From the NCBI GenBank assembly GCA_001247695.2, contig LGRX02003734.1, positions 1-64,000 of the forward strand: DNA of 64,000 nucleotides. Reading direction: 5' to 3'. A model generated the notes under the pieces. That model had not been told where the DNA came from. It did no database searches and worked only from the letters and a program-made list of their open reading frames with translations. The position numbers and the translations under genes were made by a program. Numbering within the stretch: the first letter of the stretch is position 1; every line of letters begins with the position of its first letter. Positions 2,350-35,336 of this stretch are shown here, piece after piece. The DNA is from Cymbomonas tetramitiformis (taxonomy: Eukaryota; Chlorophyta; Pyramimonadophyceae; Pyramimonadales; Pyramimonadaceae).

Positions 2350-3285
2350 CTATGCGGTATGGACCTCCGCGGCGATATCGTCCAGCCGCTGATGAATGTC
2401 GTCATCCGCGGGCTCGTCAGCAGGCTGCTGCGGCTCTACCGTGAAGCCGTAGGCGGACACGTCGATCCCGCCCACCGCATCCGCACAGAGTACCGCAGGC
2501 GGCCCGTACGTAGATGCCGCAGTGGCAAAAGCCTCGGCCCCATCATCCGCCGCCTGCTGGAACAGGGCACACATGGCCAATGCACGCACCCCCTCCGCGT
2601 CCTCCTCGTCGATGGGAATGCAGAATGCCGCGGCCGAGTGCGGGGGATGCTGACGCCCGCCCAACGGACAGTCGCGCGCGGTAGAAGTGGTACTGCTCAC
2701 CTTTACCTGCTTTCTTGCACCTTCCGCAAAAGGGCTTCGCCTTCTGGTCGTCACGGTCGAAACCGACCGCAGGCAACGGGTGCGTGCCGACACGGAATCT
2801 CCGCTGCGTGCTGCGCTGCTGCTGCTGCCGCTGCTGACGCTGCGGCTGCTGTCGCTGCTGCTGCGCCGGTGGCGCGTCCGGCCCGCGCTGCTGCCGCAGC
2901 AAATCCTGAAGCTCGTTGATCTTGTTGAGGAGGGCGCCGTACTCGGTGCTGGAGAGCTGCGCAGAGATGCCGCTCTTTCCCGAGACTGCCTTCCCCGTCC
3001 TCGTCTGCGCCCAAGCCTGATAAATCTCCACCACAAGGGAGCGGAGAGACGCCAGAGAGACATGGGCGAGGTCAGCTGCCAGAGGGTACCGCACCTTGAC
3101 CGCAGTGTAGAACACTGGGTCCAGCCGGTTGTACAGCGAGAGCTTCCTGGTCTCCTCGGTGGGCGTCCAGTCCGTAGCTTTGTTATCCCGCACCAGACGC
3201 TGTTCCCGAGCCAAGATGGGCTGCGGATCAGTGTCCGCGGGATAACGCAACGCGGCGTGCTCCTCCTGGTGCGACTCACGTAGCG
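2350..3285 (-). pseudogene. Gag fragment (middle and C-terminal part), LTR retrotransposon
   Basis: The minus-strand frame from about 3285 holds the middle of a Gag-like protein: a helical region with YNRLDPVFYTAV, then a Q/R-rich stretch, then a zinc-knuckle-like CGRCKKAGKG. Positions 2696-3285 match 16316-16905 with no indels and, by eye, four substitutions. After the knuckle the reading frame shifts near 2690: one frame ends early and another continues as an acidic, Ala-rich tail (AFCIPIDEEDAEGVRAL) to 2350. The N-terminal part is missing here but present in the 16.3-17.7 kb copy. No protease or polymerase follows. Assignment as Gag rests on the knuckle, the composition and the nearby LTR pieces, not on a strong family match. 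Confidence 0.65.
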
Positions 3286-3290
3286 GGGCT

Positions 3291-3438
3291 CAGTAATGAT
3301 CGGCACATAAGAATGTCACAAATTCCCGTTCGGTCCAGATATTCTTAGGCGATTTGGCCATTTCGTCCAAATTATTCTTAAGGATTGGCCATCGATCAAA
3401 TCGACGATACGCCACCTGGCGGTGCCAATATTCTTAGC
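3291..3438 (+). repeat. Left terminal inverted repeat and subterminal motifs
   Basis: CAGTAATGAT at 3291-3300 begins a 28-bp terminus matching the reverse complement of 16283-16310 at 22 of 28 positions without gaps. Inside it, TAAGAATGTC (3308), GATATTCTTAGG (3338), ATTATTCTTAAGG (3371) and AATATTCTTAGC (3427) recur. The same word clusters at the right end. This layout is typical of transposase-binding sites near transposon ends. The flanking dinucleotide here is CT rather than the TA found at the right end. Confidence 0.65.
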
Positions 3439-4246: not shown

Positions 4247-4314
4247 TATTGCGTTTCGCTGTTACCGTTCAATAACAGCAGCGTCACATATATTGTTCGT
4301 ATAGAACCGTGACA
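4247..4314 (-). mobile_element. Isolated 68-bp LTR end fragment
   Basis: The stretch from tattgcg to the terminal gtgaca matches 18105-18172, the outer end of the LTR of the gag-bearing element. It begins exactly where the 504-754 LTR piece stops, so the two pieces would together make one full LTR. The 3.5 kb between them is unrelated to that LTR. Confidence 0.7.
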
Positions 4315-4383
4315 ATTTCCGAACAAGGGCTCTTTTGTTTCTCACTGAGCCTATGTCCATGAAGGCCTGCGGCATGTAGCACG

Positions 4384-4898
4384 TGTGCTAGGACAACACA
4401 CGGTGTCATGCGCGGATGACTCAGCAATGTCATACATGCCAGAAGTGTCATACGCGCCTTACAGCATTAGCGCCCGAGACCCCTGTGGAGGAAGAGACCC
4501 CCCTTATATGGGAGTACACAGTACCACTGTACTGTGTAATAATGTGACATGTAGAATACTGGCACATCATACTGCATGATAATGTAGTACAAGCATATGA
4601 TAGGCTGATGAGACTTGGCCATGCTGACTAGGATTACCTCAGAGAGCTGAGTGAATAAGTAATGGCCAAGGCCAAAGAAACAGTTGAGATTTCTAGAGTA
4701 AAACAGCCGCATGGCAAAAGTCAATATAATACCTAATTCTTACTGCAAATATATGCAATGAGTCTGGACATAGTTCCTAAGAATCGACATAGCTTGATTA
4801 GTCTTATATAGTGCATAATATAGAACCCTGCACTATATATGATCCATCAGTAGTTTCACAGTCACTGTCAAGTAGAAGGTTTAGTACTGCCTCCTACA
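4384..4898 (+). repeat. 5' LTR (515 bp)
   Basis: Starts TGTGCTAGGACAACACACGG and ends CTCCTACA, so it has TG...CA termini. It matches 11133-11648 with four substitutions and one single-base indel by eye. The five bases before it, GCACG, are repeated just after the 3' LTR, giving a target-site duplication. The near identity of the LTRs implies a recent insertion. Confidence 0.95.
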
Positions 4899-4901
4899 AA
4901 A

Positions 4902-4913
4902 TGGTATCAGTGT
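4902..4913 (+). other. Primer binding site, initiator tRNA-Met type
   Basis: TGGTATCAG begins three bases after the 5' LTR. It matches the first nine bases of the plant-type initiator-Met primer site (TGGTATCAGAGC); the following bases diverge. Confidence 0.7.
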
Positions 4914-6167
4914 GCTACGCACCACCACCACCACCACCGCTTCCACAAAATTTTTCTGCTTTGAGATTGTGACTTTTCCGCCGAATTTACGTGTGCCTCA
5001 GTTTTTCGGATGGAATTTGGGCTCTCGAGTTACTGGCGCGTTACATAACTTTGAGTCAGCACTGGCCAGTGACGTCGTTTGCGACTTCCTTCAGCGAGAT
5101 GACTTGTGGCAATGTCGAGGGTTCTTCTTCAGATTACTTGTAAAACGTATTCTTTCTTCGCGAGTTACTTCATGATGGTTTCTTCGTGCGACTGCGCGTG
5201 CTTTGCGGTCTTGGCTGTTGTGAGTGCCTAGTGAGCACGCGGTTCTTCACTCGAATGTTCGCTGTGGCGTTTGTTCCTCAGCAACAAAGATTCTTAAAAT
5301 TGTCAATTGCAACGTATACTCTCTTCGCGCCGTGATCTGTGATGGAAAATTTCGGCTCGCCATGGGAGGGGTCCTACTGTGGCACAGTGTGCCACAAATA
5401 AAGTAGCCCAGAGCTATCTTTCGTCTGGCGTTCGCTCTGCGCCTGGGACTCGCAAATTACCTTTACAAATTATGGCAATTTTTGCGGGTGCTGCTTAAAT
5501 TCGGGTTTGAGGATGGTCGAAATTCTGCTTCTGGCTGCTGGCCCTTGTGTTCGCACTCTGGCGCGCTGGACGACTCGGCGCTTTTCTTACTCGCTAGCAG
5601 TTTTGCGCCGTTAATTCCTCTCGGAAATTGTGCCGATTGGTCAGCGTTTTCCGCGGGATCTTCGTCTGCTCTCTACTCTGCGATTGGAATGTGTGCGCAA
5701 CGTTCTTCTTTGGCTCGGAATTGGCGTGATGCAGCTTCGAATTAGCGCTATTCCGCTGGCGTGCGTGCTCTTCGTCGAGTGTCTTTGCGACTGAGTGGGA
5801 TTACACTAATCTATGCTGTGGAATTCGAAAATGTTCTCTGAATGGGCAGATGCGACTTGCTTTCTTTGCCCTTGAGCTCTGCAGCGCTCTAGCGTTCTTA
5901 ACAGTGGCTGACCCTGAGTGGTATCGCGCGGCAGCGTTAATTTGACTTCCGTGGGCCGATCGTTGACCAATTTTGCTCAATTTGTTTTCGTCTTACCTCT
6001 TCGAGTTCGCTGGGAAACTTCGGTTGGGATTTGGTAACGGCAGTTGTTTGTTTGCTGTTGGACTTGCGTCTTCGCTCTTAACACTATACGCCTTTACGGC
6101 GGAAGCGCTGGCGGATTTTGCAGAATCAGATTGCTGCGTTTCTCCACCAGCTTAAGCAACTTTTTCA
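4914..6167 (+). other. Untranslated leader of the LTR element
   Basis: About 1.25 kb between primer site and ORF1. It is T-rich with only short, unpersuasive frames. A packaging or internal-initiation role is possible but nothing in the sequence shows it. Confidence 0.5.
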
Positions 6168-7914
6168 ATGTCCTCTTCACGGCGGGCTTCTTCGCTGTAT
6201 ATTCCGCCTCAGCGGCGCTCGGGGGTAGCGGGTGCTGCTTCTGGGCCCTCCGGGCTCTCCAGCTCGGCCCGGGTGTTTGAGCACCGGGGATTGGGGGAGC
6301 TTGGGGCTTTGGAGCCCACCCCGTACTTTGTCCCGGAATGGGAGGCGCCAGCCGGGGCGCGGCGGGGCAGCAGGGGGGGGAGCGGTACAACGTTCTCTGG
6401 AGGGCGAATACGCGCTTTTGGCGAGCGCGCCTCTACCTCAAGAGGAAAGTCGCACCCAAGCATCGCTGCCTGCCACGCCCACGAATTTCCCCGACGGCTC
6501 GCGTGACTCTCCTGGGCTGGTATCTTCCATTGTACGTACGTTTGAGTGCTACTCTACACCCCAGCAGCGTGCAGGGGGTGCAGGTGCCTCAGGTGCCTCA
6601 GGTCTACAACGTAGCCAACCAACTCTCGAGGAGCTCAACACGGTCGCTATAGCCACCGCTCATAATTTGAGATCATCTCCTCATAGCGAAGCTGTAGTTG
6701 ACCATTTGCCTTTGGCACCAGAGCATCACGTTGGAAACCTGACCCATGAGAGCAACATATTTACGCCTAGGCGTGAAAGTGCACCTCCAAGTGGCGAGCG
6801 CGGTTTGTCAAGCGTGAACGAGTGGAGCGTCAGGCTGGCACGCCAAGCTGTAGCAGTGGATATTCTAGCGGTATGTGCATTGCGTAATTGGTGGAGTACT
6901 TGGACAGCACGAGTGCTCAACGGGCGTGTTTCATCTGCGCTTACGACATGGCGCCTACGTGCCCGTCTCGCGCGCATGCGTGTTTCCCTTACAGCATGGC
7001 ACGAGCGAGCTCACCGCAAGAATCAGGTCCAACGCAAAAAGCAAGATTTTGCTGGACACGCAAGTTCACGATTGGCGTCCCAGCTCTTGAGTGCATGGCG
7101 AGAAGAACAACGTCGTGTAAAAGAGATCACCCTCGAAATCACGGTGTGCAACATCGCCCGGTCCGAGTTCTACGTGAGGAAGTGTATGAAAGCGTGGAAG
7201 GCTACCGTGGACTTCGCTTCCAAGTGCACCACCTTTACAGTCCAGCGTGAACAACATGTGAAGCGCGAAGTCCTCCACGAGTGGTCAGCTCTGACGGACA
7301 CGCCTGACGTGACCCCGAAGCAATGGGCGACCTTGCGTAGGCATCTTCGCCGCCTGTGTGGCCAAGAAGACTCCATTGCTGCAATCACATGGGAGGTGCA
7401 GCTGAGAACGAAGAGTGGAGAGCAACGCGTGATCCCATCTCGTGGACTCCTTCTGTCGCATGTTACCTCAGCAAGCCACCATTATCATCACCTCCACTCT
7501 GCACGACCACTCGTCACGACCATCCCAGCCAACCGGCCTGCAAGGCTGGTGCGGTTGGGAGTGAGCGTCGAGGAGGTGATAAAGACTCTAAGGCGTACAA
7601 CCACTTTGGGAGCAAGTGTTCAACAGCATGGCGTACAATCTGTACCTAGCCGCAACCCCTATGGCGTCTTGTCGTCTGAAGATGACTCCACGATCGATGA
7701 GGAAGACGTTCATTCCGCTGACGACTCCGCCCCACAACCACCTCGATCAAAAGCTTCATCCGCCCCACGACCCACACAACGAGAACGTGCTGTACGTGTC
7801 CAGGCTTTGACGGAGTTAGCCCACAAGAAGGAGGTGGCGAAGCAGGAGCGGAAGCGGCAAGTTCGAAGAGATCTCAGCGCAGTACGGCCCGTTCGACGTG
7901 GACGCGTGTTGTGA
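6168..7914 (+). CDS. LTR-element ORF1: Trp-repeat (Sfi1-like) protein in the Gag position, frame change at a G tract
   Basis: The likely start is ATG 6168 (MSSSRRASSLYIPPQRRS). This frame runs into a G8 tract near 6371-6378, after which the convincing sequence continues in the next frame to 7914. The other frame's own start at 6232 gives an implausible N-terminus, so a one-base change in the G tract is the simplest reading. The region encoded at about 6820-7290 has repeated hydrophobic-x-x-Trp units (LTTW, LTAW, LSAW, MKAW, LHEW) with basic helices between them, resembling centrin-binding Sfi1 repeats. The end is acidic, then Lys/Arg-rich (HKKEVAKQERKRQ). No CCHC knuckle, protease or RT is present. 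It could be a divergent Gag or a captured host gene. Its 3' end overlaps ORF2, which is read one base forward (+1). Confidence 0.6.
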
Positions 7915-10900
7915 CTCCATGGGCGTCAACCACCAGGTGGACACCTATTGGACGGAGTGCCTCAAGCAGCAATGGCGGGGAAAGCACGTCTGGTGCAACC
8001 CCCCCTACACCAAGGATAGCAACCTCATTGAGAGGATCCTACGCCACTTTATGGCTGAGTGGCGCGCCGACCCAAAAAACACGTCGGCGATGTTCCTACT
8101 GCCGGACTATGACGCGTCCTGGCGCACCCTTATCCAGCCCAAGTACGGCCTGCACGTGGTCAAGGTGTTCGACCTCAAGGATGCCAAGGGTCACCCCACA
8201 TGCTTGTTTGAGTCACCAGATGGAGGCCGACCAGCGCTGCGGTGGCCCGTGCTGCTGGTGTGGGCGCCAGCGGCCAGCCGGACTCGGCCTCGAGCGAAGA
8301 GTGCCCGTGCGCCCGCCGCTCAAAGTGCAAGCGAGCCTATGGTCACGTCAGGGCCAGCGGCCAAGGCACGCGCAACCAAGGGACCACTAAAGGCATGCCA
8401 GTTCGTGAAAGCACTACGCGCGGAGTACGAACGTAGCCCTTACCTCACGATGTTAAAGGAAGAGCTTTTGGCCGCCCCGCACCAGCGTACGGACACCTTC
8501 CGTATGGTTGACGACATGATCTGGCGCATCGCGGAGGGACGCTACCAGCTGGTGTTGTCGTCCGACTCTCCTCTTCGGGAGATAGTCGTGCGTGAAGCGC
8601 ACGAGTCTCCCGCGGCGGGACACACCGGGCGAGATAAGACTCTTGCTCGGATAGTGCGGCGGTTCTGGTGGCCCCGCATGAACAAAGACGTCACCGACTG
8701 GACCCGCTCGTGCTTGATATGCCAGCAGACCCGCCCGAGGAACAACTATCCGGATGGCCAGCTGAACCCCCTCCAGGTCCCGGTCAGGCTGTGGCAGGTG
8801 GTGAGCATTGACTTCGTCACAGGACTGCCGCGCACGGAGCGGGGCTACGACGCCTTCGCCACGTTCACGGACAAGTTGTCCAAGATGGTGCACGTGGTCC
8901 CCATGCTGTACTCTGACAGTTCCGCTGAGCAAGTGGCACGAATGTACTTCGACCATGTTTGGCGACTGCACGGTGCTCACATGAAGATCGTTTGTGACAG
9001 GGACTCTCGCTTCCGTGACGCCTTTCATATGGAGTTGCATCGCCTTATGGGTGTGCAGGTGGCCTCCACTACGCCGTACCATCCACAAGGGGACGGTCAA
9101 GCGGAGCACACAAACCACACGGTGGAGCGCATGTTGCGCGCCTACGTTGACGCAAACCAGACAGACTGGGATTTGTGGTGCACCCCAGTGGAGTACGCCA
9201 TTAACGACTCCAGGTCCGCAGTTACTGGATTCACACCCTTCGAGCTTTGCTATGGGCATGCCCCAGCGTCGCAGCTCGACTTCTTCGTAGAAGCTGCGTT
9301 GGCCTCTCGTAGGGGCCGCGCCAAGGGGGGGAGAGGAGACGTCGTGAAGAAAGGCACGGCCCACGAGACCGCCCGGCAGTTTGTTCAGCAGTTGCAGACT
9401 GCTCGCGATAGGTTGCTGGTAGCTCAGCAGCAGCAAGTGGCCCAGTATGACGCTCGCCATCGCGCTCGCCGGTACGCAATAGGTGACATGGTGTGGGTGG
9501 ACGCCACGCATCTCACCCCGCCCGGGGATCGGGGCCTACACAAGAAGTTGCTGAAGAAGCGCCTGGGCCCGATGGAGGTGCTGGAGGCCTTCCACAGCGA
9601 CCGGCAGATGGAGCTCGCCCCCGAGGACCGAGGGCCCCCCGCGGCTTACCGCCTGAAGCTACCACCACAGTGGAAGGTGCACGACGTCTTCACCGTGGAT
9701 AGACTCACCCCAGTGGAGTCGGGCCAGGACAAGTTCGCGGGCAGGAGTGCGGAGATTCCGCCTCCCCCTGTGGACGTGAGCGGTCGTAAGGAGATGGCGG
9801 TGGAGTGCATTGAGAGGTCACGCACGAGGAGACGTAGCGGGCGGACATGGACGGAGTACATGGTCAAATGGGTAGGTATGCCGCGCTCCGAGAATGAATG
9901 GAAAACTCGCGAGGACCTCGAGTTCGATGGAGTTGGCCGAATAGGGATACCTAACCGCGCTCTTCAGGAGTTCGAGAAGGTCGAGGCCAAGAGGCAAGAA
10001 CGTGAAAAGAGTAGAGTCACTCGCAAACGCGAGGAGTCAGCAGGAGCGATATGGTTGACGGATCCTGAAGAGTTACAGGCGGACGGAATGGCGTGGATCC
10101 CGGAAGAACGGGTCGACGACGAGGTGGGCACATTCGCGACGGTGTCGTCCACCAGTTTCATGCCATCCCAAGGACCTGGTCGAGGAGCGGCACGCCTACA
10201 GCCGTCTCGGCGCCCAATACGGATCTTGGTGTTGTTTTGTGGCACAGGCTCCGTCGAACGACAGTTCAGCAAGCAGTTTCCTGGGTGTGAGGTAGTCTCG
10301 GTGGACATCCAGAACCGATGGAAGCCCACTCACTGCGAAAACATCCTGCACTGGGACTGTCGGCAGTTCTCGCCCAAGCACTTTGACGTCATTTGGGCGA
10401 GCCCTCCATGCACAGAGTACAGCCACGCCAAAACGGTAGGGATACGAAACTTGCGTGGTGCTGACAGGCAAGTGCGGAGAACGCTGGAGATCATCAAGTA
10501 CCTCCAGCCGAGCTTCTACTTCATCGAGAACCCGCGTGGCCGAGCTCCTCATGGGTTACACACTCGCCGATGCATGCAAGGGTTGCCACCTCCGCATCTG
10601 GCTACGTATTGTAAGTATGGTATGCCCTACAAGAAACCCACCCACTTCTGGACCAACGCGCCTATCACCACCCTGAAGTCTTGTGACCCCGAAAACCCCT
10701 GCGACTTCAAACGCCGTTATGGGCGGCACGAGAAGATGGCGCAGAGCGGCTCCGCCAGCAGAGAGTCGGGCGACCCTAGACCAGGCATGGGAGCTGGATG
10801 GCACGTGTATGGCATCCCCGCAACCTTGCTTAAACAATTATTCAGCTCTCTACCGGTGGAACAACCCGTGGGGGCAATCGCAGCGGTGTGTGAATACCTA

Positions 10901-11077
10901 GCGGAGCTGCTCTGGAGAGATGAAAATGAGACAGATCTCAACGATGAAAGAGTCTGCGCTAATCCGGATGAAGCTGACGAGGAGCCGGTGACCTTGATGC
11001 CGGAGTACAGCCCTACGCCGCCTCCAGTGATGTCCGACGACAGCGAGTGGGACACCATGGGCTCCGAATCAGCCTAA
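7820..11077 (+). CDS. LTR-element ORF2: Dam-like / integrase / chromodomain / Dcm-like polyprotein
   Basis: The frame is open from 7820, just after TAG 7817-7819, so it overlaps ORF1 by 95 nt. Residue numbers here count from codon 7898. Residues 1-125 resemble phage-type Dam adenine methyltransferases, with YGPFDVDACCD just upstream and in frame, NPPY at 34-37 and FLLPDYDASW. Next comes an H2C2 zinc-binding domain (about 233-275, ending CLICQQTRP), then the integrase core with D305, D367 and E403. A chromodomain follows near 634-680 (YMVKWVGMP). From about 775 there is a C5-cytosine methyltransferase-like domain: LVLFCGTGS (motif I), VVSVDIQ, ASPPC with Cys838 (motif IV) and ENPRG (motif VI). 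Retroelements with Dcm-type enzymes are known from dinoflagellates and charophytes; both methyltransferase types in one polyprotein is unusual. Activity is inferred from motifs only. Protease, RT and RNase H are absent. Confidence 0.9.
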   Translation, partial: PTRRRWRSRSGSGKFEEISAQYGPFDVDACCDSMGVNHQVDTYWTECLKQQWRGKHVWCNPPYTKDSNLIERILRHFMAEWRADPKNTSAMFLLPDYDASWRTLIQPKYGLHVVKVFDLKDAKGHPTCLFESPDGGRPALRWPVLLVWAPAASRTRPRAKSARAPAAQSASEPMVTSGPAAKARATKGPLKACQFVKALRAEYERSPYLTMLKEELLAAPHQRTDTFRMVDDMIWRIAEGRYQLVLSSDSPLREIVVREAHESPAAGHTGRDKTLARIVRRFWWPRMNKDVTDWTRSCLICQQTRPRNNYPDGQLNPLQVPVRLWQVVSIDFVTGLPRTERGYDAFATFTDKLSKMVHVVPMLYSDSSAEQVARMYFDHVWRLHGAHMKIVCDRDSRFRDAFHMELHRLMGVQVASTTPYHPQGDGQAEHTNHTVERMLRAYVDANQTDWDLWCTPVEYAINDSRSAVTGFTPFELCYGHAPASQLDFFVEAALASRRGRAKGGRGDVVKKGTAHETARQFVQQLQTARDRLLVAQQQQVAQYDARHRARRYAIGDMVWVDATHLTPPGDRGLHKKLLKKRLGPMEVLEAFHSDRQMELAPEDRGPPAAYRLKLPPQWKVHDVFTVDRLTPVESGQDKFAGRSAEIPPPPVDVSGRKEMAVECIERSRTRRRSGRTWTEYMVKWVGMPRSENEWKTREDLEFDGVGRIGIPNRALQEFEKVEAKRQEREKSRVTRKREESAGAIWLTDPEELQADGMAWIPEERVDDEVGTFATVSSTSFMPSQGPGRGAARLQPSRRPIRILVLFCGTGSVERQFSKQFPGCEVVSVDIQNRWKPTHCENILHWDCRQFSPKHFDVIWASPPCTEYSHAKTVGIRNLRGADRQVRRTLEIIKYLQPSFYFIENPRGRAPHGLHTRRCMQGLPPPHLATYCKYGMPYKKPTHFWTNAPITTLKSCDPENPCDFKRRYGRHEKMAQSGSASRESGDPRPGMGAGWHVYGIPATLLKQLFSSLPVEQPVGAIAAVCEYLAELLWRDENETDLNDERVCANPDEADEEPVTLMPEYSPTPPPVMSDDSEWDTMGSESA

Positions 11078-11117
11078 CGACTGTGCATCTAAGCACAAGG
11101 GAGGACGCTTCCCACCT

Positions 11118-11132
11118 GAAGGGGGGGGGAGT
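11118..11132 (+). other. Polypurine tract
   Basis: A purine run with nine consecutive G residues ends one or two bases before the 3' LTR, the expected place for plus-strand priming. Confidence 0.85.
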
Positions 11133-11648
11133 TGTGCTAGGACAACACACGGTGTCATGCGCGGATGACTCAGCAATGTCATACATGCCAGAAGTGTCAT
11201 ACGCGCCTTACAGCATTAGCGCCCGAGACCCCTGTTGAGGAAGAGACCCCCCTTATATGGGAGTACACAGTACCACTGTACTGTGTAATAATGTGACATG
11301 TAGAATACTGGCACATCATACTGCATGATAATGTAGTACAAGCATATGATAGGTTGATGAGACTTGGCCATGCTGACTAGGATTACCTCAGAGAGCTGAG
11401 TGAATAAGTAATGGCCAAGGCCAAAGAAACAGTCGAGATTTCTAGAGTAAAAACAGCCGCATGGCAAAAGTCAATATAATACCTAATTCTTACTGCAAAT
11501 ATATGCAATGAGTCTGGACATAGTTCCTAAGAATCGGCATAGCTTGATTAGTCTTATATAGTGCATAATATAGAACCCTGCACTATATATGATCCATCAG
11601 TAGTTTCACAGTCACTGTCAAGTAGAAGGTTTAGTACTGCCTCCTACA
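11133..11648 (+). repeat. 3' LTR (516 bp)
   Basis: Partner of the 5' LTR: TGTGCTAGG...CTCCTACA, followed by the target duplicate GCACG at 11649-11653. Differences from the 5' copy are G/T after CCCCTGT, C/T in ATAGG(C/T)TGA, T/C in CAGT(T/C)GAG, A/G in AATCG(A/G)CAT, and one extra A. Confidence 0.95.
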
Positions 11649-12089
11649 GCACGGCTAGGTGGGCCCGGGTTGCATAATCGATGAAAATGACATTTAGAAG
11701 TCGCAAGAAGTTTCAAGAAGTACTTAGTGGTTAAAATAAATCATCTAGAGGCAATATTTTATATTTTTGATAATTGTAGTGGCCACAGGGCTGCTTACAG
11801 GTCGCGGATGGGCTGCCGTACATACATTGCATATCTTGCGGGCGCGTGAGATATGCAAATGATACGGAGAAGTTATTAGACGTGGTGAGAAGTATTTAGA
11901 GGTCATCCGTAGGCAATGAGAAGCGAAATTTCACATCGGGACATATTCACGGGGTGCTGGGGAGCTAATTTCGTCTGTAAAATGGCTGCAAAGCAGAAAT
12001 TGCATATATTGCGGGCGCGTGAGATATGCGAATGATACGGGGAAGTTATTACACGTTGTGAGCCCGTCCACCTAGCCGTGCTACATGCC
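11649..12089. mobile_element. MITE-like segment split by the LTR insertion
   Basis: If the LTR element is removed, GGCATGTAGCACGGCTAGGT (starting at 4371 and resuming at 11654) faces its exact reverse complement at 12068-12089, a 22-bp perfect inverted repeat bounding about 450 bp. Inside are two ~60-bp direct copies of a segment with gcgggcgcgtgagatatgc, at 11829-11888 and 12003-12062. The retrotransposon landed within the left arm, so the duplicated GCACG is part of it. A clear target duplication for this small element is not evident. It may instead be an intron-borne repeat of the surrounding transposon. Confidence 0.6.
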
Positions 12090-15079
12090 CTACAGAAACC
12101 TCCACCGCCAGCCGCATCTTCCAAACGACGATTGACTCAGCAAATTTTGCCCTGCGAGGACTTTGAACTCGAATGCGAAATAGTCCTATCTGGACTACTC
12201 GATGAGGTGTGCCATGCGTACGTACATACCTGCCACACCGCAACTCGTTTTGCCTGCGTGTGGTGGCTTGCACTCGGGTTTCAAGCAACTGAAGCGTGCG
12301 TATGGCTCACTTGCGATATTCTTCCGTCCATGTGTATGCAGGTTTCGGAGCCTGACGAAATTATGGCGAAGTCCTTGGTTGACGACCTGATCAACGAAGC
12401 ATTTGGCGAAGCGTGTCGACGTGCCCGCCAACGTAAGATTTCAAAAGTGCAGGAACGCATCACCACGCGGGAGGGGGCTCCCGTTGCTGCTGGTGACAAG
12501 ACCATTCGACAGTCAGGGAAGCGAAAGCAGGATCGCTTGTTGACTACGGTCCAGAAGCAGCAAAGTGCGCACTCATCTGCGATTGATCTCCGCGTCGAGA
12601 ATAAATGTAGCGCAAAGCGGAGGAAGTTCAACGATAAACAGCGGGCAGAAGTTTTGCATATGCTGGAGGATGTTGAGCAGGACCGTTCTATCAGTAACAA
12701 GATGGATCACGTTGCCAAGCTATCCGGGATCACCCAGGGCATGGTTTCTTCCTGGAGCAAAAAGCGGGATGAGATTTTTAAGGGCGCTGCTGATGAGACA
12801 CTTTCCAATCTGTTTCGCAAAGCGCAGACCAAACAGACGACTAGCTACTGGCCTCTTGCTGAAGCCCAACTTTTCAAAGAGTTTAAGGCAAGGCGTGCTA
12901 GGAGGAATCGGAGGGTGCCAAAACGGTGGCTCATCATACAGTAAACACTCGATTTTAAGAAAAAGGAATTTTAGGTCAGCCTAGCAACTTTCTTATTTAT
13001 ATAGAGATCTTAAATATGGAGTGTTATGTGTTAAATATTGTGAAGAAATCAAAAAAGCTGGCTACTTTCTTATTGGCGGGTTTTCTTATTACTGGGTGAT
13101 TACTGTACGCATGCGAGCCCTTATCCGTGAGCATCACCCTGACTCCTCTCACGAATTCCAGGGTTCCCACGGCTGGCGACAACGTTTTTGCCGGAGGTAC
13201 AAGCTTGCTCCTCGCAGGAAGTCAAACAAAAAAACCCAAACCTTTGGAGGAACGCCTTCCCGCCCTGCGCACCTTTCACACGAATTTGCGGCGTATGTTG
13301 TCGTATTCAGCAAGTGATCAAGCCCTAGCAATTCCACCTCGCGAGCTAGGGGCATGTGCAAGCGGAACGCCTTTCAGCACCAGCGTGGCGTCTGCTCCTA
13401 TTCGTGCCACAGACCGAGGCACGAAAAGGCGACCGGATCCGGACAACGATGCTTCTCTATTGCATGAGGACGACCTTCGTCACAGTAAGTGGGGCAGGTT
13501 CCCTCCGCATGCACGTTTGAATGTCGACCAGGTGCCCATGCCCTTCGTCTTCCACGCTGGGCGTTGCGATACTTATGAATTCAAGGGTGCCAAGCGGGTG
13601 CAAGTGTCGGGAAACGGTGGTGGCTCCATGTCCAAGAGGCAGGCGACAGCACAGTTGGCGTTCCGGCCGATACGTGCTATTCGTAAGAAAGACGGCTCGA
13701 TTGTCGAACTCCCACAACCACGCCCTGCTATGGTCTTCCGTGGTAAAGGGCGAGTGAAGCAGGAGGAGATTCTAGCATATAATCCTAACGTTGACGTTTA
13801 CTGGCAGGATAATGCTTGGGTCGACCGCGTCGTAGCTCCTGCGTGGGCGAAGCGTACTATGATGCAGTTTGCTAAGAATGACGCTGCTGTTTTTGCTAAA
13901 GCTGGACTCGGAGATCTTGTCCCCACTGAATATTTACTTTTGCAGGATAACTTGGATGCACAAAAGGAGGAGACCTACAAACAGGTGCTTCTGAGTGAAG
14001 TGAAGGCAACGTCGTGGTTTGGCCCAGCCCAAGCAACAGATTTGTGGCAACCTGTGGACCAAGGCTACGGTCGTGAGGTCAAGCGGGAAATGGATGTTTG
14101 CCAAGAGGATTGGCTCGAAGATGATCATAACTTGGAGCGTTGGGAAGACAACAAGCTCGCCACGAGTGACAAACGAGTTTGTCTAACGCACTGGTTGGGG
14201 GAGTCGTGTGAGACCGTGAATTCGGCATGCAACTTGTTTCGCTACTTTCAAAAGGGCGGTCTTCTGATGACAGTGAATGGGGAGGGCGACGGAATGATCA
14301 CGCCTGAGGGCACTGCGGGCTACACTTTCCCGGAACCTGACTTGGCACCCGATGCCGTGGAAATGCTAAAAAGTGTTGCAGAGATCCTTCCTGAAAGGAG
14401 TGATAGTGAAGATGAGGACCATTGTGATAGTGATGGTGGTGCGGAAGAGTATTTGGAGGGCGACGACGAGACCGAGGTTGCTTGGTATCTTCCTGCAGGT
14501 TTCGTTGTGCGGGAGCAATTTCGTGATCCGACCGATGCGAACGGGAAGAAAGCTCTGGTGGGGAGGTCCATCATGTTTTTTTGGGAGGGTGCTGGCTGGT
14601 GCAAAGGGGTCATCAAGACGGTGCTTACCAGCAGCCAACAGGCGAAGTGTGCAGGTAACTATGAAGTCCTTTATGTAGATGGCGACAAGGCCAACAACCT
14701 GCTGTTGCATCGAACCTACTCGTGGGGAGATGAAGCGGAGTATGGTAGCTGGGTGCTGTTGCAAAAGGCAGTGGTTGGGGAGGAACCGAAGTCCACGTGC
14801 AAGGAAGTGCGAGCCATGCCCAGCGAACAGCCTCAACCGCAAGAACTCGACGTGCATGCCGAAGGCGGTGGTGAGAAATTTAGTGCAGGTGCACGTGTGC
14901 AAGACGATATTTTTGGACCTGCGACTGGTTTGTATTTGGCTTGCACGCACTCAGTGAAAGCAGGTGAATGTAACAGTTGCTCCCGTAACGGCACAGACAA
15001 GGCCTATGCTGTTTTGAAGTTTGATAGTGGCAGAGTAGGTGATCGTCGGGGATGCGAGCATCTTTCTGTTCTGCAGTGA
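12078..15079 (+). pseudogene. Pogo/Tigger-like DDE transposase, frame-broken
   Basis: Three plus-strand frames make one family-like protein. 12078-12944 carries basic segments and a Psq-type helix-turn-helix (LSGITQGMVSSWSKKR). A phase-0 intron at 12207-12341 (gag|gtgtgc...atgcag) is plausible. A frame ending at 13317 has the CENP-B-type second helix-turn-helix (SHGWRQRFCRRYKLAPRRKS). From 13127 to 15079 lies the DDE_1 core: D134 in NVDQVPMPF, D274 in LLLQDNLDAQ, D311 in LWQPVDQG (residues from codon 13127), followed by an acidic region and a Tudor-like tail. The switch into the last frame falls at an A7 tract (13229-13235), where one base less would restore the frame. The 12945-13100 stretch is an intron or insertion. 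All three catalytic Asp remain, so inactivation is recent or partly due to sequence error. Confidence 0.8.
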
Positions 15080-15184: not shown

Positions 15185-16163
15185 ATCTCCTTGTGCAAAA
15201 CCTTTATATAGGCTGAATTTCAGCACATATATAGGCTGAATTTCAGCTCATGTAATATAGGCTGAATTTCAGCTCATATATAGCCTTATATAAAGGCTGA
15301 AATTCAGCTCATATATAAACTGAATTTCAGCTCATATATAGCCTCATATATATATATATATATAGGCTGAATACCATATATAGGCTGAATTCCAGCTCAT
15401 ATATAGGCCGAGTTTCAGCTCATATATAGGCTGAGTTCCAGCTCATATATAGCCTCATATATATGCTGACTTTCAGCTCATATATAGGCTAACTTTCAGC
15501 TCATATATAGGCTGAATTTCAGCTCATATATAGGCTAAATTTCAGCTCATATATATAGCCTCATATATAGGCTGAGTTTCAGCTCATATATAGGCTGAGT
15601 TTCAGCTCACATACAGGCTGAATTTTAGCTCATATATAGGCTAAGTTTAAGCTCATATATAGCCTCATATATAGGCTGAATTTCAGCTCATAACTAGGCT
15701 GGGTTTCAGCTCATATATAGCATTATATATAGGCTGAATTTCAGCTCGTATATAGGCTGAATTTCTGCTCATATATAGGCTGAATTTCTGCTCATATATA
15801 TACTCATATATAGGCTGAATGCCAGCTCATATATAGCAGGCCGAGTTTCAGCTCATATATAGGTTGAATTTCAAGCTCATATATGGGCTGAATTTCAGCT
15901 CATATATAGGCTAAATTTCAGGTCATGTATAGGCTGAATTTCGGCTCACATATAGGCTGAGCTTCAGCTCATATATAGGCTGAATTTTAGCTCATATATA
16001 GGCTGAGTTTCAGCTCATATATAGCTTCATATATAGGCTGAATTTCAGCTCATATATGGGCTGACTTTCACTCATGTATAGGCAGAATTTCAGCTCATAT
16101 ATAGCCTCATATATAGGCTGAATTTCAGCTCACATACAGGCCGAATTTCAGCTCATTTTTCAT
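15185..16163. repeat. Minisatellite of ~23-bp hairpin-prone units, about 40 copies
   Basis: The unit is approximately GGCTGAATTTCAGCTCATATATA, with many single-base variants and occasional shorter units reading TAGCCTCATATATA. Each unit holds the imperfect palindrome GCTGAATTTCAGC. It lies between the transposase stop (15079) and the right transposon end. Confidence 0.9.
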
Positions 16164-16176
16164 TATCTCCGGTCCC

Positions 16177-16310
16177 GATATTCTTAGCTCCTGGCGGGTT
16201 AAGAATATCCCCATTTCTTTTTGCGCGGTGTTGATATTCTTAGCGATTTTTGCACAAATCCGCTAGCGATATTCTTATAGCATGATATTCTTAAACGCGA
16301 ATCATTACTG
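16177..16310. repeat. Right terminal inverted repeat and subterminal motifs
   Basis: GATATTCTTA occurs at 16177, 16233, 16268 and 16284, and inverted (TAAGAATATC) at 16200. The block ends ATCATTACTG at 16310, followed by TA. The last 28 bases pair with the left terminus at 22 positions. Confidence 0.65.
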
Positions 16311-17698
16311 TACTGCTCACCTTTACCCGCTTTCTTGCACCTTCCGCAAAAGGGCTTCGCCTTCTGGTCGTCACGGTCGAAACCGACCGCAGGCAACGGG
16401 TGCGTGCCGACACGGAATCCCCGCTGCGTGCTGCGCTGCTGCTGCTGCCGCTGCTGACGCTGCGGCTGCTGTCGCTGCTGCTGCGCCGGTGGCGCGTCCG
16501 GCCCGCGCTGCTGCCGCAGCAAATCCTGAAGCTCGTTGATCTTGTTGAGGAGGGCGCCGTACTCGGTGCTGCAGAGCTGCGCAGAGATGCCGCTCTTTCC
16601 CGAGACTGCCTTCCCCGTCCCCGTCTGCGCCCAAGCCTGATAAATCTCCACCACAAGGGAGCGGAGAGACGCCAGAGAGACATGGGCGAGGTCAGCTGCC
16701 AGAGGGTACCGCACCTTGACCGCAGTGTAGAACACTGGGTCCAGCCGGTTGTACAGCGAGAGCTTCCTGGTCTCCTCGGTGGGCGTCCAGTCCGTAGCTT
16801 TGTTATCCCGCACCAGACGCTGTTCCCGAGCCAAGATGGGCTGCGGATCAGTGTCCGCGGGATAACGCAACGCGGCGTGCTCCTCCTGGTGCGACTCACG
16901 TAGCGCCACTGGCACGCAGCCCTTGATGATGTCCACAAGAGCTCGCCGTCCATCACGGCCAGACGAGGCGTCGGTGCCAGTCAGCCAAACGTAGGCGTTG
17001 CTGTGTTTCTCGACAACCAGAGCCAGAACGTCGTAGAGCAAGCCGTTGACCTTGGTTACCACACGAGCCAGAGGGTCGTCGAGGTCAAAGGATGCCAGCT
17101 CCAGCCCAGCCGAATGAAACTCCGTACGCAGCTGCACCACCAGCTCGGAGAGGAGGCCAGCGTCGTCCGTACCGCGGAAGTGGTGCTTCTTGTCCCCAAG
17201 GACATCCTCGCGGACACCCTTGGCCCATTGGCGGTGTAGACGCGCTTTGTAGATGTCGTCAACCAGCTTGCTCTGCTCCTGTAAGTACTTCCTGGTCGCC
17301 ACGTCTGCATCCTCGTTGGAAGTCGGAGCGGGGGTCGGAACAGTTGGCGTACGCACCGTCGGACTGTTCCGAACCCCGTCTAATAGCCTCAGTGAGGCGT
17401 CAATGTCACTGTCCCTGTCCAGGGACTTCTTCGCTCGGGTCAACATACCCATGCTCTGAAAAGCCAGAGGGGAGGTGGTACGCAGTCGCGCGGTTGGGTG
17501 TGGTAGCGGGAAAACGGTAATGGTCAGCAGCGGAGAGGAGCCAAGAGAGTGGAGCGGCGAGGGGCACTCGAAGATGTCGTCGAAGTCGAAGGTGTCGCGA
17601 ACACCAGCCCAGAAAACAGTAACCAGCAGAGCCAGTGCCGGTGCAAAACTGGATCCGAACATTGCTAAGACTAGTCCGTAACGAGGCGCGGTCCCCAT
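16311..17698 (-). pseudogene. Gag fragment (N-terminal and middle part), LTR retrotransposon
   Basis: Read on the minus strand from ATG 17698 (MGTAPRYGL); an internal MGMLTRAKKS could be the native Gag start. The product has a Thr/Pro-rich linker, a long helical region (KYLQEQSKLVDDIYKARLH), a block shared with the 2.35-3.29 kb copy, a Q/R-rich stretch and the beginning of the CGRCKKAGKG knuckle. It is cut at the knuckle by the right end of the DNA transposon. LTR sequence lies about 150 bp upstream (17855-18172) in the correct orientation, which supports the identification. Together the two gag copies would cover the full protein. Confidence 0.7.
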
Positions 17699-17854
17699 GG
17701 CCGCCACTCCCAGTTGCTTACCGCAAACAGTTCATACCATAAGTCCTAGCCGCACCCAAACGCGCCCGCGCGCACCACCTCTCCAAGCGGCCGTTTAGCC
17801 AACCATGGCCAAATCAGCAAGTGGAATAAAAGCGTGGATGGGGCCACGACCTAC

Positions 17855-18172
17855 TGGAATATCCTAGTTCACTAGATATCAGAAACTCCCGAACTGTGTG
17901 GATAAACTCCTAAGATAAATAAACCCTAAGCTAGATATACCCGGAACGGTCTCGGACGGTTTCGGAGTCTAGCCTACCTGTGACACAGCGTGTGTCACAG
18001 CACGAACCTATAGATCAGTCAGCAGTCCAGTGTTGGCCTAGGAGTCTGTCATAGGGGCCTGACCGGGACTCCCAGTCAGGGCTGCCTATACAGATTTCAG
18101 CATATTGCGTTTTGCTGTTACCGTTCAATAACAGCAGCGTCACACATACTGTTCGCATAGCGAACCGTGACA
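17855..18172 (-). mobile_element. LTR (5' end) of the gag-bearing element
   Basis: On the minus strand it begins TGTCACGGTTCG at 18172 and ends at ATTCCA near 17855, a 318-bp LTR with TG...CA ends. Partial copies lie at 504-754 and 4247-4314. It includes an interrupted palindrome TGACACAGCGTGTGTCA. A primer site downstream is not clear. Confidence 0.7.
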
Positions 18173-18916: not shown

Positions 18917-20603
18917 TTAACAGAAAGATGTCTCTCGCCTATTTTTGGTGTGTTGCCTACAAATTCTTGAAAGTTTTTTAAGGAGTGGTTTAATCTTACC
19001 ACGGGGAACACCTATCGTGTTGAGGACAGTACCAAAATGAGGAGGGAGGTATCCCATGAGAGTAAGAACTTTGGGCCATTTCACGGTGCTTATGAAGGGC
19101 TTGGAATTTGCATTGGTGATTGTCGTGTCGTGGTGGCCACCATAATAAGGTTCAATATCACTCTGATGATAAAGAGGGTCTTGAGTGGGCCATGGGCAAA
19201 GCGAACAGGGAAGCACCTTGTCGCTTTCGTTCAGAACTTCATTCCAAATATCAGGGCTGACTCCTGTGTATTCTAGCCTCTTCTTCGTGACTCTGGACTT
19301 GGGAAGGACGTTAAGGAACCATTTGGCAATCTTTTTCTGTGTAGGCCTCCAATCAAAGGCTGGTTGAGTATCACTGGGTGCACTGTCTATAGCTATGATA
19401 ACAACATCCGAAAAGTCATCCTTATAGCATCCGCCACCTGGAAGAACGTAGGGGTCATCACCCGCCCAATAGCCATGTGGGATAAATGGAATAGTGTTAT
19501 GCGGGAATCTGAAAACAAGTTTAAAGCCTTTATCAAACCATCTTTTTTGGTTTTTGGGAGACAGCGGAAGAATCCATGTTCTTGAAAATTCAGAAACGGT
19601 GTTGGCCGCTTTATGTCCCATTTCCAAGGTAGTCATAACCGCCGAAGATTTGCCCTTATCTTTCCCATCAAAGGGGGGATTTCCGTAAACGATTCTGCCA
19701 ATGCCTGTTATCGGGTCCACGTAGGCATCCCAAGCGAGACCATCAAAGCCGATTTTCCCATGATGGCAGAAGGGCCCGAGGGCTTTTTTCATTCTTGTGG
19801 TGGGTATGCATCTTCTCGAGTGAATTCTAGGGTGGGCATTTAGTGGGTTGGAGAAAAGTTCACACCCGTTTTTGTCAAGGTTTCTGTCATCCACCAAAAT
19901 ATCTAAGAGGCTTCTCCTGATTGTGTAGCAGTTTTTAGGATCTCCCGAATCAAACTTACATGCATTGAGTGCTTCATGAATATCGTGTGCCCTATTCGAG
20001 TACTCCGCAAGTAAGCATGGGACTGCTTTGTTGGAAAGGCGGTGCCAGGCCAAAAGTTTCCAAAACTCTTTCTTTTGAACATATTGGAGTTCGGGATATT
20101 TAATTGTTCCCGTAACATGGTCCACTTCGGGTTTAGCGGTCACAGCGATGGTATTCTTTTTTGAACTTGATGGACGGTACATGCTAGCTTCCGGGAGAGC
20201 GTGTAAGTATAATTCCTCATTCATCTCCTGTCTTAGGTCAGCAAGTGGAAAAAAGTTTCGATGGTTGTGTTTTGATGTATGTGGTACCTTTTCCAGGGTT
20301 TAGTAGTTTGGGCTTTTCTAAGATTTCTTCAACAATGATTTTCCTTAGTTCGCTATCTTGGGTTGTTTTAAGACTATACAAACTATTATTATTATGTCCC
20401 GAGCATTCAAGTTGGATGTGTTCGAAGGTGCATTTTGTATTCGGTTGGCAGTAGGGGCAGTTTTCAGTTTCGATTTTCCCCAGTTTAAATAAACGTGCTG
20501 GAGAGGCTTGGAGACCCAGGCGTTCTATGCTTCTAGAAGCGGTGAAAGCTTTAGGTCTAGACACGGTAAGTAAGTAAGGTAAGGTAATTTGGTCCGGTTC
20601 CAA
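18917..20603 (-). pseudogene. Retroelement 3' part: RT-type zinc knuckle fused to a Dam-like domain, one frameshift
   Basis: Minus-strand frame 20603-20238 has a pattern typical of the zinc-binding tail of non-LTR reverse transcriptases (ENCPYCQPNTKCTFEHIQLEC). At a T6 run near 20250 the coding sense passes to the next frame, which reads NFFPLADLRQEMNEELYLHA without interruption and continues to 18917. That part contains NGCELFSNPLNAH, a catalytic-type NPPF (in RIVYGNPPFDGK), TWILPLSPKNQKRWF and FIPHGYW, a layout like Dam-type adenine methyltransferases and their retroelement relatives. I infer a 5'-truncated LINE-like element whose ORF ended in a Dam-like module. The polymerase core is not present. 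One frameshift breaks it. Confidence 0.65.
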
Positions 20604-32664: not shown

Positions 32665-34311
32665 TCAACCACGCGTTAACGCATATATTTTAAAGCGCCC
32701 TTCTCGGCGTGTTGCTGCGCCTGGCGTATGGCGTGGGAGGCCTGGAAACCGTGATTGTGCGTGAGGGTCTTCGTGAGCCAGGGAAGCCATATCCAGTTCA
32801 CGTTCTGCGTGTCGGCTGCGAGGGCACCAGCGGAGGTGTGTACGCCTTACTTTCCCAGAATAGCCTTCAAACTTTGGGTTTATGTGCGGCTCCAGCCAAG
32901 CCTTGAAGTCCAACTGTTGGCCTTGTACGTCCGTGATTTTGGTGAACTTCTCCACCGGCCAGCTTCGTAACCAGCCAATCCACGATTCCAGGGTCAATAG
33001 CCACACTCCAGATTTGCGCGCGTCTTTCCCAAATATGAACATTTTGATGAGTCCAAACCAACCGTCGCAGTCGTTATGGGTGTGCGCGACCATCAGACGG
33101 TGGAAGACAATCACGTTGTAAATATTGTAGTGCACCAACACCGCACAAAACGCAAACGCGTTCTTGTTCCAATTTTCTGAGCCACCATCCAGCTGCAAAT
33201 GAAGCTCCTTCCGGAAGTAGCGCTTGCCTGCGCGACCTTGTGCGGTGTAATGCAACAAGTTCCACAGTGTCGTGAGCAGCATGTTTGCACCCATCCAAGG
33301 GAGCCCAACGGAAAATAGAAGCAACGAGCCATGAAGTATCGTGAGCTGCAGGTGTAGGTTAAAGAAATGCTGTTTTTTCTCGCTGATGCCCTTAACTTGA
33401 TGCGGGGCATGCGGAACAACCGTGTTCTGATTTGCCGCGCCGTCCGCCGCTATGGAGTCGATCCGACCGTCAGGGTCAGAACCCTTCTTCCGCCTGAGGT
33501 CATAACACGTGCGTTGCATCCTGTGAATGTAGTCGTGTTGCTCGAAACGCGCAGAATAGGCGTTCCAGCGTACAGGATCGCGACCCTGTTGTCCAAGAAG
33601 CTGAGCCTTCTCTGCTCCCGGATCGTCACATGTCGTGCAGATTCCGGACACCTCCACCTTCGCCCTTACCGTTATGTGTCGAGCCTTGAGCAGGTTTTTC
33701 ACGTATATTTTGAACGTTTCAGCACATACTGCCCACTGGACCTCTGTGTCTAACCTATACAAGTCGTACTGCACACCATAATCGATGGGTGGAATTTGGC
33801 GCGCACCACTGACCGGCATCCTCTGTGGTGCTCCTTTCAACATATTCGTATCCGCCCAGTCGCGGAACACCTCCTCGTGGTAGGAAATCTTCGTCACCAC
33901 CGCCTTCGCCACAGGGAATGCACTTGTTGCCGGTAGTTCCCCCTTCTCATCAAGGATAAGTGCCTTATATCGCTGGTACGAGCTCCTGGGCAGCGCCCAC
34001 ACTATTCTGAACGCCTCCTCGCAGATCTCCTTTTCGAAAAGCTTCAGGGTGCCAATAACACGCTCTCCAGACTCGCGCTTCACCATCGCTTTGCGCATAG
34101 TTGCCATAATGTAAGACTTGAACTCAGTTTGGCCCATGCGCTGCTTATGGTCCATATTGCCCTTGAATGTGCTGAACAAGAAACTGCAGTTCCGATCGCA
34201 CCCACAGGTGAAACCGCCCTCGCATAGTTCGGGAATATTGGACTGTGCAATTCGAAGAGTCTTCTGCTTTGACAATCTCCTGCCGCTGGAGTTGCTGCTA
34301 TTGCTGCTCAT
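32665..34311 (-). CDS. DUF7869-type transposase
   Basis: An intact 548-residue frame on the minus strand. The N-terminus is Ser-rich, then Cys-rich (residues 30-42, CEGGFTCGCDRNC), with another CxxC at 225-228 (CTTCDD). The C-terminal half has the acidic motifs of DUF7869 proteins: IAADGAANQN (Asp290), HLQLDGGSENWNK (Asp375) and VAHTHNDCDGWFG (His410, Asp414, Asp416). This family occurs in large eukaryotic transposable elements and looks like an RNase-H-fold nuclease, so these residues are candidate catalytic ones. It is transcribed away from a 42-bp hairpin array that separates it from a divergent 827-residue gene. No stop or frameshift is seen. Terminal repeats of the element were not found, so mobility is inferred. 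Confidence 0.75.
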   Translation of the reverse strand: MSSNSSNSSGRRLSKQKTLRIAQSNIPELCEGGFTCGCDRNCSFLFSTFKGNMDHKQRMGQTEFKSYIMATMRKAMVKRESGERVIGTLKLFEKEICEEAFRIVWALPRSSYQRYKALILDEKGELPATSAFPVAKAVVTKISYHEEVFRDWADTNMLKGAPQRMPVSGARQIPPIDYGVQYDLYRLDTEVQWAVCAETFKIYVKNLLKARHITVRAKVEVSGICTTCDDPGAEKAQLLGQQGRDPVRWNAYSARFEQHDYIHRMQRTCYDLRRKKGSDPDGRIDSIAADGAANQNTVVPHAPHQVKGISEKKQHFFNLHLQLTILHGSLLLFSVGLPWMGANMLLTTLWNLLHYTAQGRAGKRYFRKELHLQLDGGSENWNKNAFAFCAVLVHYNIYNVIVFHRLMVAHTHNDCDGWFGLIKMFIFGKDARKSGVWLLTLESWIGWLRSWPVEKFTKITDVQGQQLDFKAWLEPHINPKFEGYSGKVRRTHLRWCPRSRHAERELDMASLAHEDPHAQSRFPGLPRHTPGAATRREGRFKIYALTRG

Positions 34312-34387
34312 CTTGCGAGACGCGTACCGTTGTTATGTTGTTTCATATTTGAACGCTTACCTGATCTGAGGGCCCTTGTTTCCTAGA

Positions 34388-35285: not shown

Positions 35286-35336
35286 GTTTCGCAGGGTTAA
35301 ACAGAGCCCGTTGTGCTGCATACAAAACTTTCCGCA

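Follow-up and report, generated by a model that had tools for sequence, protein, structure and literature searches.

We analysed a window of 64,000 nucleotides (positions 1 to 64,000 of contig LGRX02003734.1 from the green alga Cymbomonas tetramitiformis), in which one long open reading frame (ORF) of a retrotransposon, ORF2, encodes two different methyltransferase domains. The element is a recent, internally deleted copy of a Ty3/Gypsy chromodomain retrotransposon with long terminal repeats (LTRs). It belongs to a lineage whose Pol polyprotein has the order protease (PR), reverse transcriptase (RT), RNase H (RH), Dam-like adenine methyltransferase, integrase (IN), chromodomain and C5-cytosine methyltransferase (C5). 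The probability of this identity and lineage is estimated at about 0.92. As judged by comparison of the relatives, the pairing of both methyltransferases in a retrotransposon lineage is real, and the order is common to strongly diverged elements. The pairing is probably old.

ORF2 has 1085 amino acids between stops. The longest stop-free run in 300 mononucleotide shuffles of 7701-11100 was 316 amino acids (median 175), and a chance ORF was rejected on this comparison. Along ORF2, Pfam families were found in the order Dam, Integrase_H2C2, integrase core (rve), SH3_Tf2-1, Chromo and DNA_methylase. Given as bits/curated cut-off, the scores were 35.3/28.1 for Dam (PF05869; E 1.1e-8, residues 15-73), 77.8/25.5 for Integrase_H2C2 (E 6.9e-22), 33.2/30 for SH3_Tf2-1 (E 5.7e-8), 28.8/25.1 for Chromo (E 1.1e-6) and 24.4/22 for DNA_methylase (PF00145; E 2.4e-5, residues 802-906). 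The rve family, at 20.7/32.6 bits (E 5e-4), was the sole listed family under its cut-off; the three acidic motifs are present. Both ends of ORF2 are also matched by PHROGs families named "DNA methyltransferase": phrog_111 at residues 15-96 (E 1e-12) and phrog_757 at residues 799-955 (E 4.8e-17). The characteristic motifs start at residues 26 (DVDACCD), 60 (NPPY), 805 (LFCGTGS), 859 (WASPPC) and 903 (ENPRG).

The modelled structures agree with these assignments. The mean predicted local distance difference test (pLDDT) of the AlphaFold models was 84.6 for the Dam part (window 7820-8290) and 88.3 for the C5 part, and both ends match methyltransferases in the PDB; in other words, both have methyltransferase folds. 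The C5 part has the C5 methyltransferase fold, with DNMT3 ranking first and M.HhaI close behind, and carries motifs I, IV (PPC) and VI (ENP). The domain is of about 210 amino acids, and the stretch past the motif VIII-like part is short and holds the least confident blocks of the model. By sequence comparison it belongs to a compact type that phages and other viruses carry. A PDB profile search with alignment A2, whose rows are full-length, was led by integrase and chromodomain, and DNMT2 was found at E 4.6e-7. The alignments used for folding contained one misplaced row each (P0040 in A1, P0045 in A2). Thus, profiles, motifs and models bear out the sequence-only reading, which had placed Dam-like and Dcm-like ends around a Ty3-type integrase and a chromodomain, in this order and in one frame; the profile check that it proposed was run, and both ends passed the Pfam cut-offs.

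The LTR insertion spans 4384-11648, and its LTRs are identical in 511/516 aligned columns; with the flanking duplications (Table 1), it is a recent insertion. The motif TGGTATCAG downstream of the 5' LTR resembles what we take to be a primer-binding site of the initiator tRNA-Met type, and AAGGGGGGGGGAG upstream of the 3' LTR is presumably the polypurine tract. The body of the gag-like ORF1 is in the frame of 6229-7914, and its start (MSSSRR..) is in another frame (6156-6506). ORF1 and ORF2 also lie in different frames. The first methionine of ORF2 is residue 34, downstream of the DVDACC motif.

Family profiles for PR, RT and RH found no match among the 466 stop-free fragments of at least 60 amino acids in the window. 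The segment KFEEISAQYGPF, which begins at residue 1464 in the relative P0024, past PR, RT and RH, directly adjoins gag in the window. The gag relative P0063 continues differently from the same junction point, and the N-terminus of the Dam domain in the relatives (DRQDWKLV..) is replaced in the window at the junction near 7859. Compared with these relatives, the copy has undergone a deletion from within gag into the start of Dam, with loss of PR, RT and RH in between. An intact autonomous element was therefore rejected, as the window has no PR, RT or RH of this retrotransposon family. The proposal of "one retrotransposon polyprotein" stands in that both enzymes are in one ORF, and needs amendment in that this ORF belongs to a deletion derivative without PR, RT and RH and with a trimmed Dam domain.

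The class assignment is based on several features. The window copy has TG..CA LTRs with a target-site duplication, an H2C2/D-D-E integrase and a chromodomain. PR, RT and RH ahead of the integrase are absent from it and present in P0007 and P0024, and its integrase groups with relatives bearing a Gypsy RT-RH. A loose D-D-E pattern matched 34/48 integrases, a count that is not taken as evidence because the patterns were too narrow for several rows. ORF1 and ORF2 had no Pfam match to Phage_integrase (the tyrosine recombinase expected of a DIRS element); the integrase is of the DDE type instead. No second copy of ORF1 or ORF2 was found within the window (tblastn, E 1e-3). Likewise, no empty insertion site was found in the window: the joined flanks matched only a junction-free 70-base repeat, in addition to two short chance matches.

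Relatives were collected by similarity to ORF2 (61 proteins; scoring covered the 7990 candidates sharing most words) and then through the C5 domain of P0036 (12 proteins, 10 of them new). PR, RT, RH, Dam, IN, chromodomain and C5 were mapped with profiles built from 3-6 family members on 65, later 75, sequences. The Dam and C5 profiles were rebuilt once; as all come from family members, the presence calls are partly circular. Cymbomonas tetramitiformis is the name on the nearest proteins, such as P0024 (98% identity over 27% of ORF2) and P0001 (81% over 85%); the window is almost certainly nuclear DNA of this prasinophyte. P0007 (1846 amino acids) has all seven domains in the order given above within one ORF. 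The seven are also found in one ORF in P0015 (with only a short piece of RT), P0069, P0070, P0071 and P0073, and P0074 has the full set with a degenerate Dam. The same order was thus found in other elements, the profiles accept both ends, and the key residues are retained outside the window, so that the pairing outlasts the check by which the sequence-only reading could have failed.

A C5 match was found in 42 sequences, among them the window and the virus-like P0059 and P0060; 39 of the 42 also have an integrase. Twenty proteins have RNase H, integrase and C5. Dam is in the slot between RH and IN in 14/20, a count that describes relatives found by ORF2 or C5 similarity rather than Gypsy elements at large. 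Eleven of the 14 carry NPP[YF], two carry SPPY (P0036, P0065) and one is degenerate (P0074). In P0041 and P0067 a degenerate Dam-like segment with NPVY is located after C5, and in the other four (P0045, P0066, P0068, P0072) Dam was not detected by the family profiles. C5 itself sits between RH and IN in P0045. P0040 and P0043, which are without C5, have a Dam-like domain ahead of the protease, degenerate in P0043. Methyltransferase domains therefore occupy varied slots in Gypsy elements: Dam after C5, C5 between RH and IN, and Dam before the protease. In P0073, a PHD finger (residues 1278-1322; Pfam E 1.7e-12) lies between Dam and integrase.

Conservation differs between the two methyltransferases. 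PPC is kept in 42/42 C5 matches and ENP in 40/42; the two exceptions are matches of just 98 and 102 amino acids. Among the 38 Dam segments of at least 60 amino acids (window included), 25 have NPP[YFW] and three have SPP[YFW]. In 63 distant pairs from 14 sequences, the median identity was 46% for C5, 44% for IN, 35% for Dam and 26% for the linker between Dam and IN; the linker between the chromodomain and C5 also had a median of 26% (39 distant pairs). In 28 nearer pairs, the identities were 69% (IN), 58% (C5), 57% (Dam) and 48% (Dam-IN linker). The distant-pair values indicate that long-range constraint on C5 is similar to that on the integrase, and that Dam is less constrained.

The trees bear on the history of the pairing. 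In the integrase tree (34 rows), the C5-bearing rows form two clades, one of 20 rows and one of seven, both supported at 99/97. The first clade reappears in the C5 tree (29 retroelement and five viral rows) with 22 rows and support of 97/92; of the second, the subgroups reappear, but their joint branch is not resolved. A weakly supported branch (79/74, seven outgroup rows) has all C5-bearing integrases on the same side. When 17 retroelement C5 domains were compared with 23 viral ones, the former were a single group (100/100) in an unrooted tree. The main split shared by the C5 and integrase trees suggests a single old capture of C5; most simply, these data are read as a virus-type C5 that was acquired once, early, and then inherited. 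The Dam tree has long branches and only 3/21 well-supported inner branches, so that one capture and several captures are indistinguishable for this domain.

The sequence relatives found for the C5 domain outside retroelements are viral, and the type is common in viral contigs. At least 600 stretches of viral contigs match the C5 type; 545 of the 600 listed encode a relative, and 80 loci were kept. A tblastn search of 50,697 phage records found C5 in 72 and the Dam-like domain in 464, all below 60% identity. Of 160 viral loci retained for a C5 or a Dam match, eight match both profiles, and none has an RT, RH, IN, chromodomain or protease profile match (E 1e-3). On one viral contig, L091, Dam-like and C5-like matches are in neighbouring open stretches (from 5566 and 6067), about 500 bases apart. 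Patterns from the whole of ORF2 found no relatives in IMG/VR.

Several observations weigh against the mechanism proposed below. Neither NPP[YFW] nor SPP[YFW] is found in 10/38 Dam segments, among them P0002 and P0003, which begin past the motif. Pfam Dam is under its cut-off in P0069 and P0070 and unlisted in P0071 and P0073, and DNA_methylase is under its cut-off in P0069 and P0071 and above it in P0070 and P0073. Since Pfam alone is weaker there, the Dam and C5 calls in these distant relatives rest on the family-built profiles. The closest solved fold to the Dam-like domain is PCIF1, which ranks above the DNA enzymes in the PDB. Of the aromatic-cage residues of HP1, the window chromodomain keeps the tryptophan, and the remaining two are replaced by methionine. 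Histone reading by this chromodomain is uncertain, because its cage appears incomplete.

In autonomous relatives, the integrase would bring both methyltransferases to fresh element cDNA and to the insertion site. There the C5 enzyme might methylate either DNA, and the adenine enzyme might do likewise in lineages that keep its motif. Such methylation could shield the cDNA from DNA surveillance by the host or fix a chromatin state on arrival, and as a result the element would persist in many copies while doing little harm. The window copy would be incapable of this alone, and would move only with the enzymes of autonomous relatives. At least the C5 domain is quite likely to be catalytic in those relatives. 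Methylation acting in cis, on the cDNA or on the insertion site, is tentatively proposed as the selected role; it is the most favoured of the mechanisms considered, with slightly less than an even chance of being right. A little more doubtful is the fuller proposal of a one-protein self-marking machine in an old lineage, combining a virus-type C5 captured once before the sampled lineages diverged, Dam in the slot between RH and IN, a chromodomain and, at least in P0073, a PHD finger. Here the integrase would read chromatin and write two methyl marks on its own insertions or beside them. A related conjecture of the sequence-only reading is that the element would choose a chromatin target and mark its own or neighbouring DNA. 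DNA adenine methylation should not be taken for granted, as Dam is altered or lost in several relatives and an RNA enzyme is its nearest fold.

This last point leads to the alternatives for the Dam-like domain. Like PCIF1/CAPAM, the domain might act on RNA, on a cap-adjacent or internal adenosine of the element's own transcript, leaving C5 alone to act on DNA; this would help the transcript to be translated or packaged, or to evade RNA surveillance. The fold ranking and a similar NPPF stretch in PCIF1 are in line with this idea, whereas the sequence match to PCIF1 is not significant (E 0.42) and Pfam and PHROGs both assign a DNA adenine methyltransferase. In addition, four of the six best viral fold matches of the Dam model bear the name N-6-adenine methyltransferase, the PCIF1-like proteins of viruses come 12th or lower, and NPP[YF] occurs in DNA and RNA enzymes alike. 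An RNA-acting domain is considered unlikely. Equally unlikely, in our estimate, is that the domain would be a relic or a non-catalytic nucleic-acid-binding part, with C5 as the sole active enzyme. The motif-less segments include those of the long proteins P0022, P0041, P0043, P0067 and P0074, four of the 20 proteins are without Dam, and its identity is below that of C5 in distant pairs; however, 28/38 segments keep [NS]PP[YFW], including those of the distant P0025, P0069, P0070, P0071 and P0073.

Two other explanations concern the element as a whole. The enzymes might act chiefly in trans, on competing viruses or host chromatin, as in the defence idea that Morozov et al. outlined in 2019 (PMC6338049). 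In favour are the resemblance of the enzymes to viral ones and the many endogenous viral elements of Cymbomonas (PMC10675990), but fusion to an integrase favours local action, and trans action as the chief role seems rather improbable. A chance fusion or assembly artefact in a single copy is hardly credible. The copy is rearranged, the gag frame changes and the region is repeat-rich; nevertheless, a perfect duplication and 99% identical LTRs bracket the copy, and the same order is found in separate proteins at 30-50% identity. A one-off event was rejected on the LTR structure and the relatives.

Table 1. Features of the retrotransposon copy, in window coordinates.
Feature	Position	Strand	Remarks
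Target-site duplication GCACG, left copy	4379..4383	.	5 bp
5' LTR	4384..4898	+	TGTG...TACA; 511/516 columns identical to 3' LTR
Primer-binding-site-like TGGTATCAG	4902..4910	+	read in sequence
gag-like region (ORF1)	6156..7914	+	relatives P0062, P0063, P0064; no Pfam family
ORF2	7820..11077	+	1085 aa; shuffle control
Internal deletion junction	7850..7862	+	gag upstream, Dam (KFEEIS..) downstream; P0063 and P0024 diverge here
Dam-like adenine methyltransferase domain, N-terminus lost	7859..8269, residues 14-150	+	NPPY at 7997-8008; profiles, model
Ty3-type integrase, H2C2 zinc domain and core	8573..9256	+	Pfam, family profiles, motifs
Chromodomain	9791..9925, residues 658-702	+	Pfam Chromo 28.8/25.1 bits
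Compact C5-cytosine methyltransferase domain	10214..10843, residues 799-1008	+	PPC 862-864, ENPRG from 903
Polypurine tract AAGGGGGGGGGAG	11119..11131	+	read in sequence
3' LTR	11133..11648	+	alignment with 5' LTR
Target-site duplication GCACG, right copy	11649..11653	.	5 bp

Other features were observed elsewhere in the window. A second coding region, gag-like by reading, is present in two copies on the minus strand (2350-3315 and 16199-17731), which share a 300-base stretch with 99% identity (2690-2989 and 16310-16609); the longer copy, 16199-17731, has no Pfam family above cut-off. A repeat is contiguous at 17911-18160, and its other copy (562-754, 4247-4304) is split at 754/4247, as if about 3.5 kb had been inserted. 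Tandem repeats are found at 15205-16170 (an AT-rich minisatellite with a 23-base period and GGCTGAATTTCAGCTCATATATA-like units) and at 1896-2329 (129-base spacing, three copies, 91-94% identical). On the minus strand, a 460-amino-acid ORF at 18917-20299 has a GNPPF motif and no match to Pfam (E up to 1), PHROGs, PDB sequences or the family Dam profile, and an ORF at 32668-34332 has DUF7869 (E 3.4e-16; PF25273, also listed for the dual-methyltransferase protein P0010). On the plus strand, a DDE_1 transposase-like ORF at 13100-15079 is exactly at the Pfam cut-off (22/22 bits), and an 839-amino-acid ORF at 35301-37817 has no Pfam match at E 0.01.

In the available portions of the literature cited here, methyltransferase capture concerns one enzyme type each: Dam in DIRS elements, and Dnmt3 or another C5 enzyme in DIRS, LINE and Gypsy elements. 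Among the papers listed by searches of the open-licence PubMed Central (PMC) literature, none was found to describe a Gypsy polyprotein with both enzymes. A lineage that retained both chemistries in one integrase polyprotein over deep divergence offers a natural test of why an element would encode enzymes for marks that are usually thought to be silencing. Since Dam is intact, altered, moved or missing among relatives in which C5 is constant, comparison can separate the two roles. The enzymes, if active, might influence the methylomes of algae with very large, repeat-filled genomes.

One of the closest known systems is KnitGypsy-Dnmt3 (de Mendoza et al. 2018, PMC5890265). This Gypsy LTR element of Klebsormidium nitens, likewise an alga of the green lineage, has a C5 methyltransferase in its Pol ORF, reported to be of the eukaryotic Dnmt3 type. 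The accessible text names no adenine methyltransferase or chromodomain there, whereas the window element has a Dam-like domain and a C5 whose nearest sequence matches are viral. The same source, in the part available, describes SymbioLINE-Dnmt and SymbioDIRS-Dnmt3 of Symbiodinium, the SymbioDIRS enzymes being active on CG in yeast. These share a retrotransposon-borne C5 with our element, but are of other classes with one enzyme type each. Methylation of cDNA by single-enzyme elements is also discussed in that text. According to the excerpt of PMC3783388, DIRS elements have an MT (Dam, PF05869) domain after RNase H. The position immediately after RT-RH is similar; however, compared by description only, DIRS elements have a tyrosine recombinase and no DDE integrase. 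The cap adenosine N6-methyltransferase PCIF1/CAPAM is the nearest fold and shares NPPF-like residues with the Dam-like domain, but is an RNA enzyme. It is described as eukaryote-only in the portion available of a survey (PMC8868631). The fold match raises the possibility of a shared origin of PCIF1 and the retroelement Dam-like domains.

According to the opinion paper of Morozov et al. (PMC6338049), many eukaryotes, among them green algae, have Ty3/Gypsy and DIRS elements that encode DAM and DCM. Retrotransposon-embedded C5 enzymes are also mentioned in a 2025 survey of the eukaryotic enzymes, and the word "Cymbomonas" is absent from its available text (PMC12344493). In a newer Cymbomonas assembly, Chlamyvir-like chromoviruses are likewise Ty3/Gypsy elements with a chromodomain, while the word "methyltransferase" is absent from the paper as available (PMC10675990). 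A further parallel is from Cymbomonas itself. Scaffolds with coverage above 10,000x (mode about 20x) were reported, three of four with homology to chromodomain, RNase H and cytosine methyltransferase; in the accessible text they are not described as one element and no adenine enzyme is named (PMC5741210). Their coverage suggests that the family is at high copy number, and these repeat scaffolds very likely belong to the dual-methyltransferase family described here.

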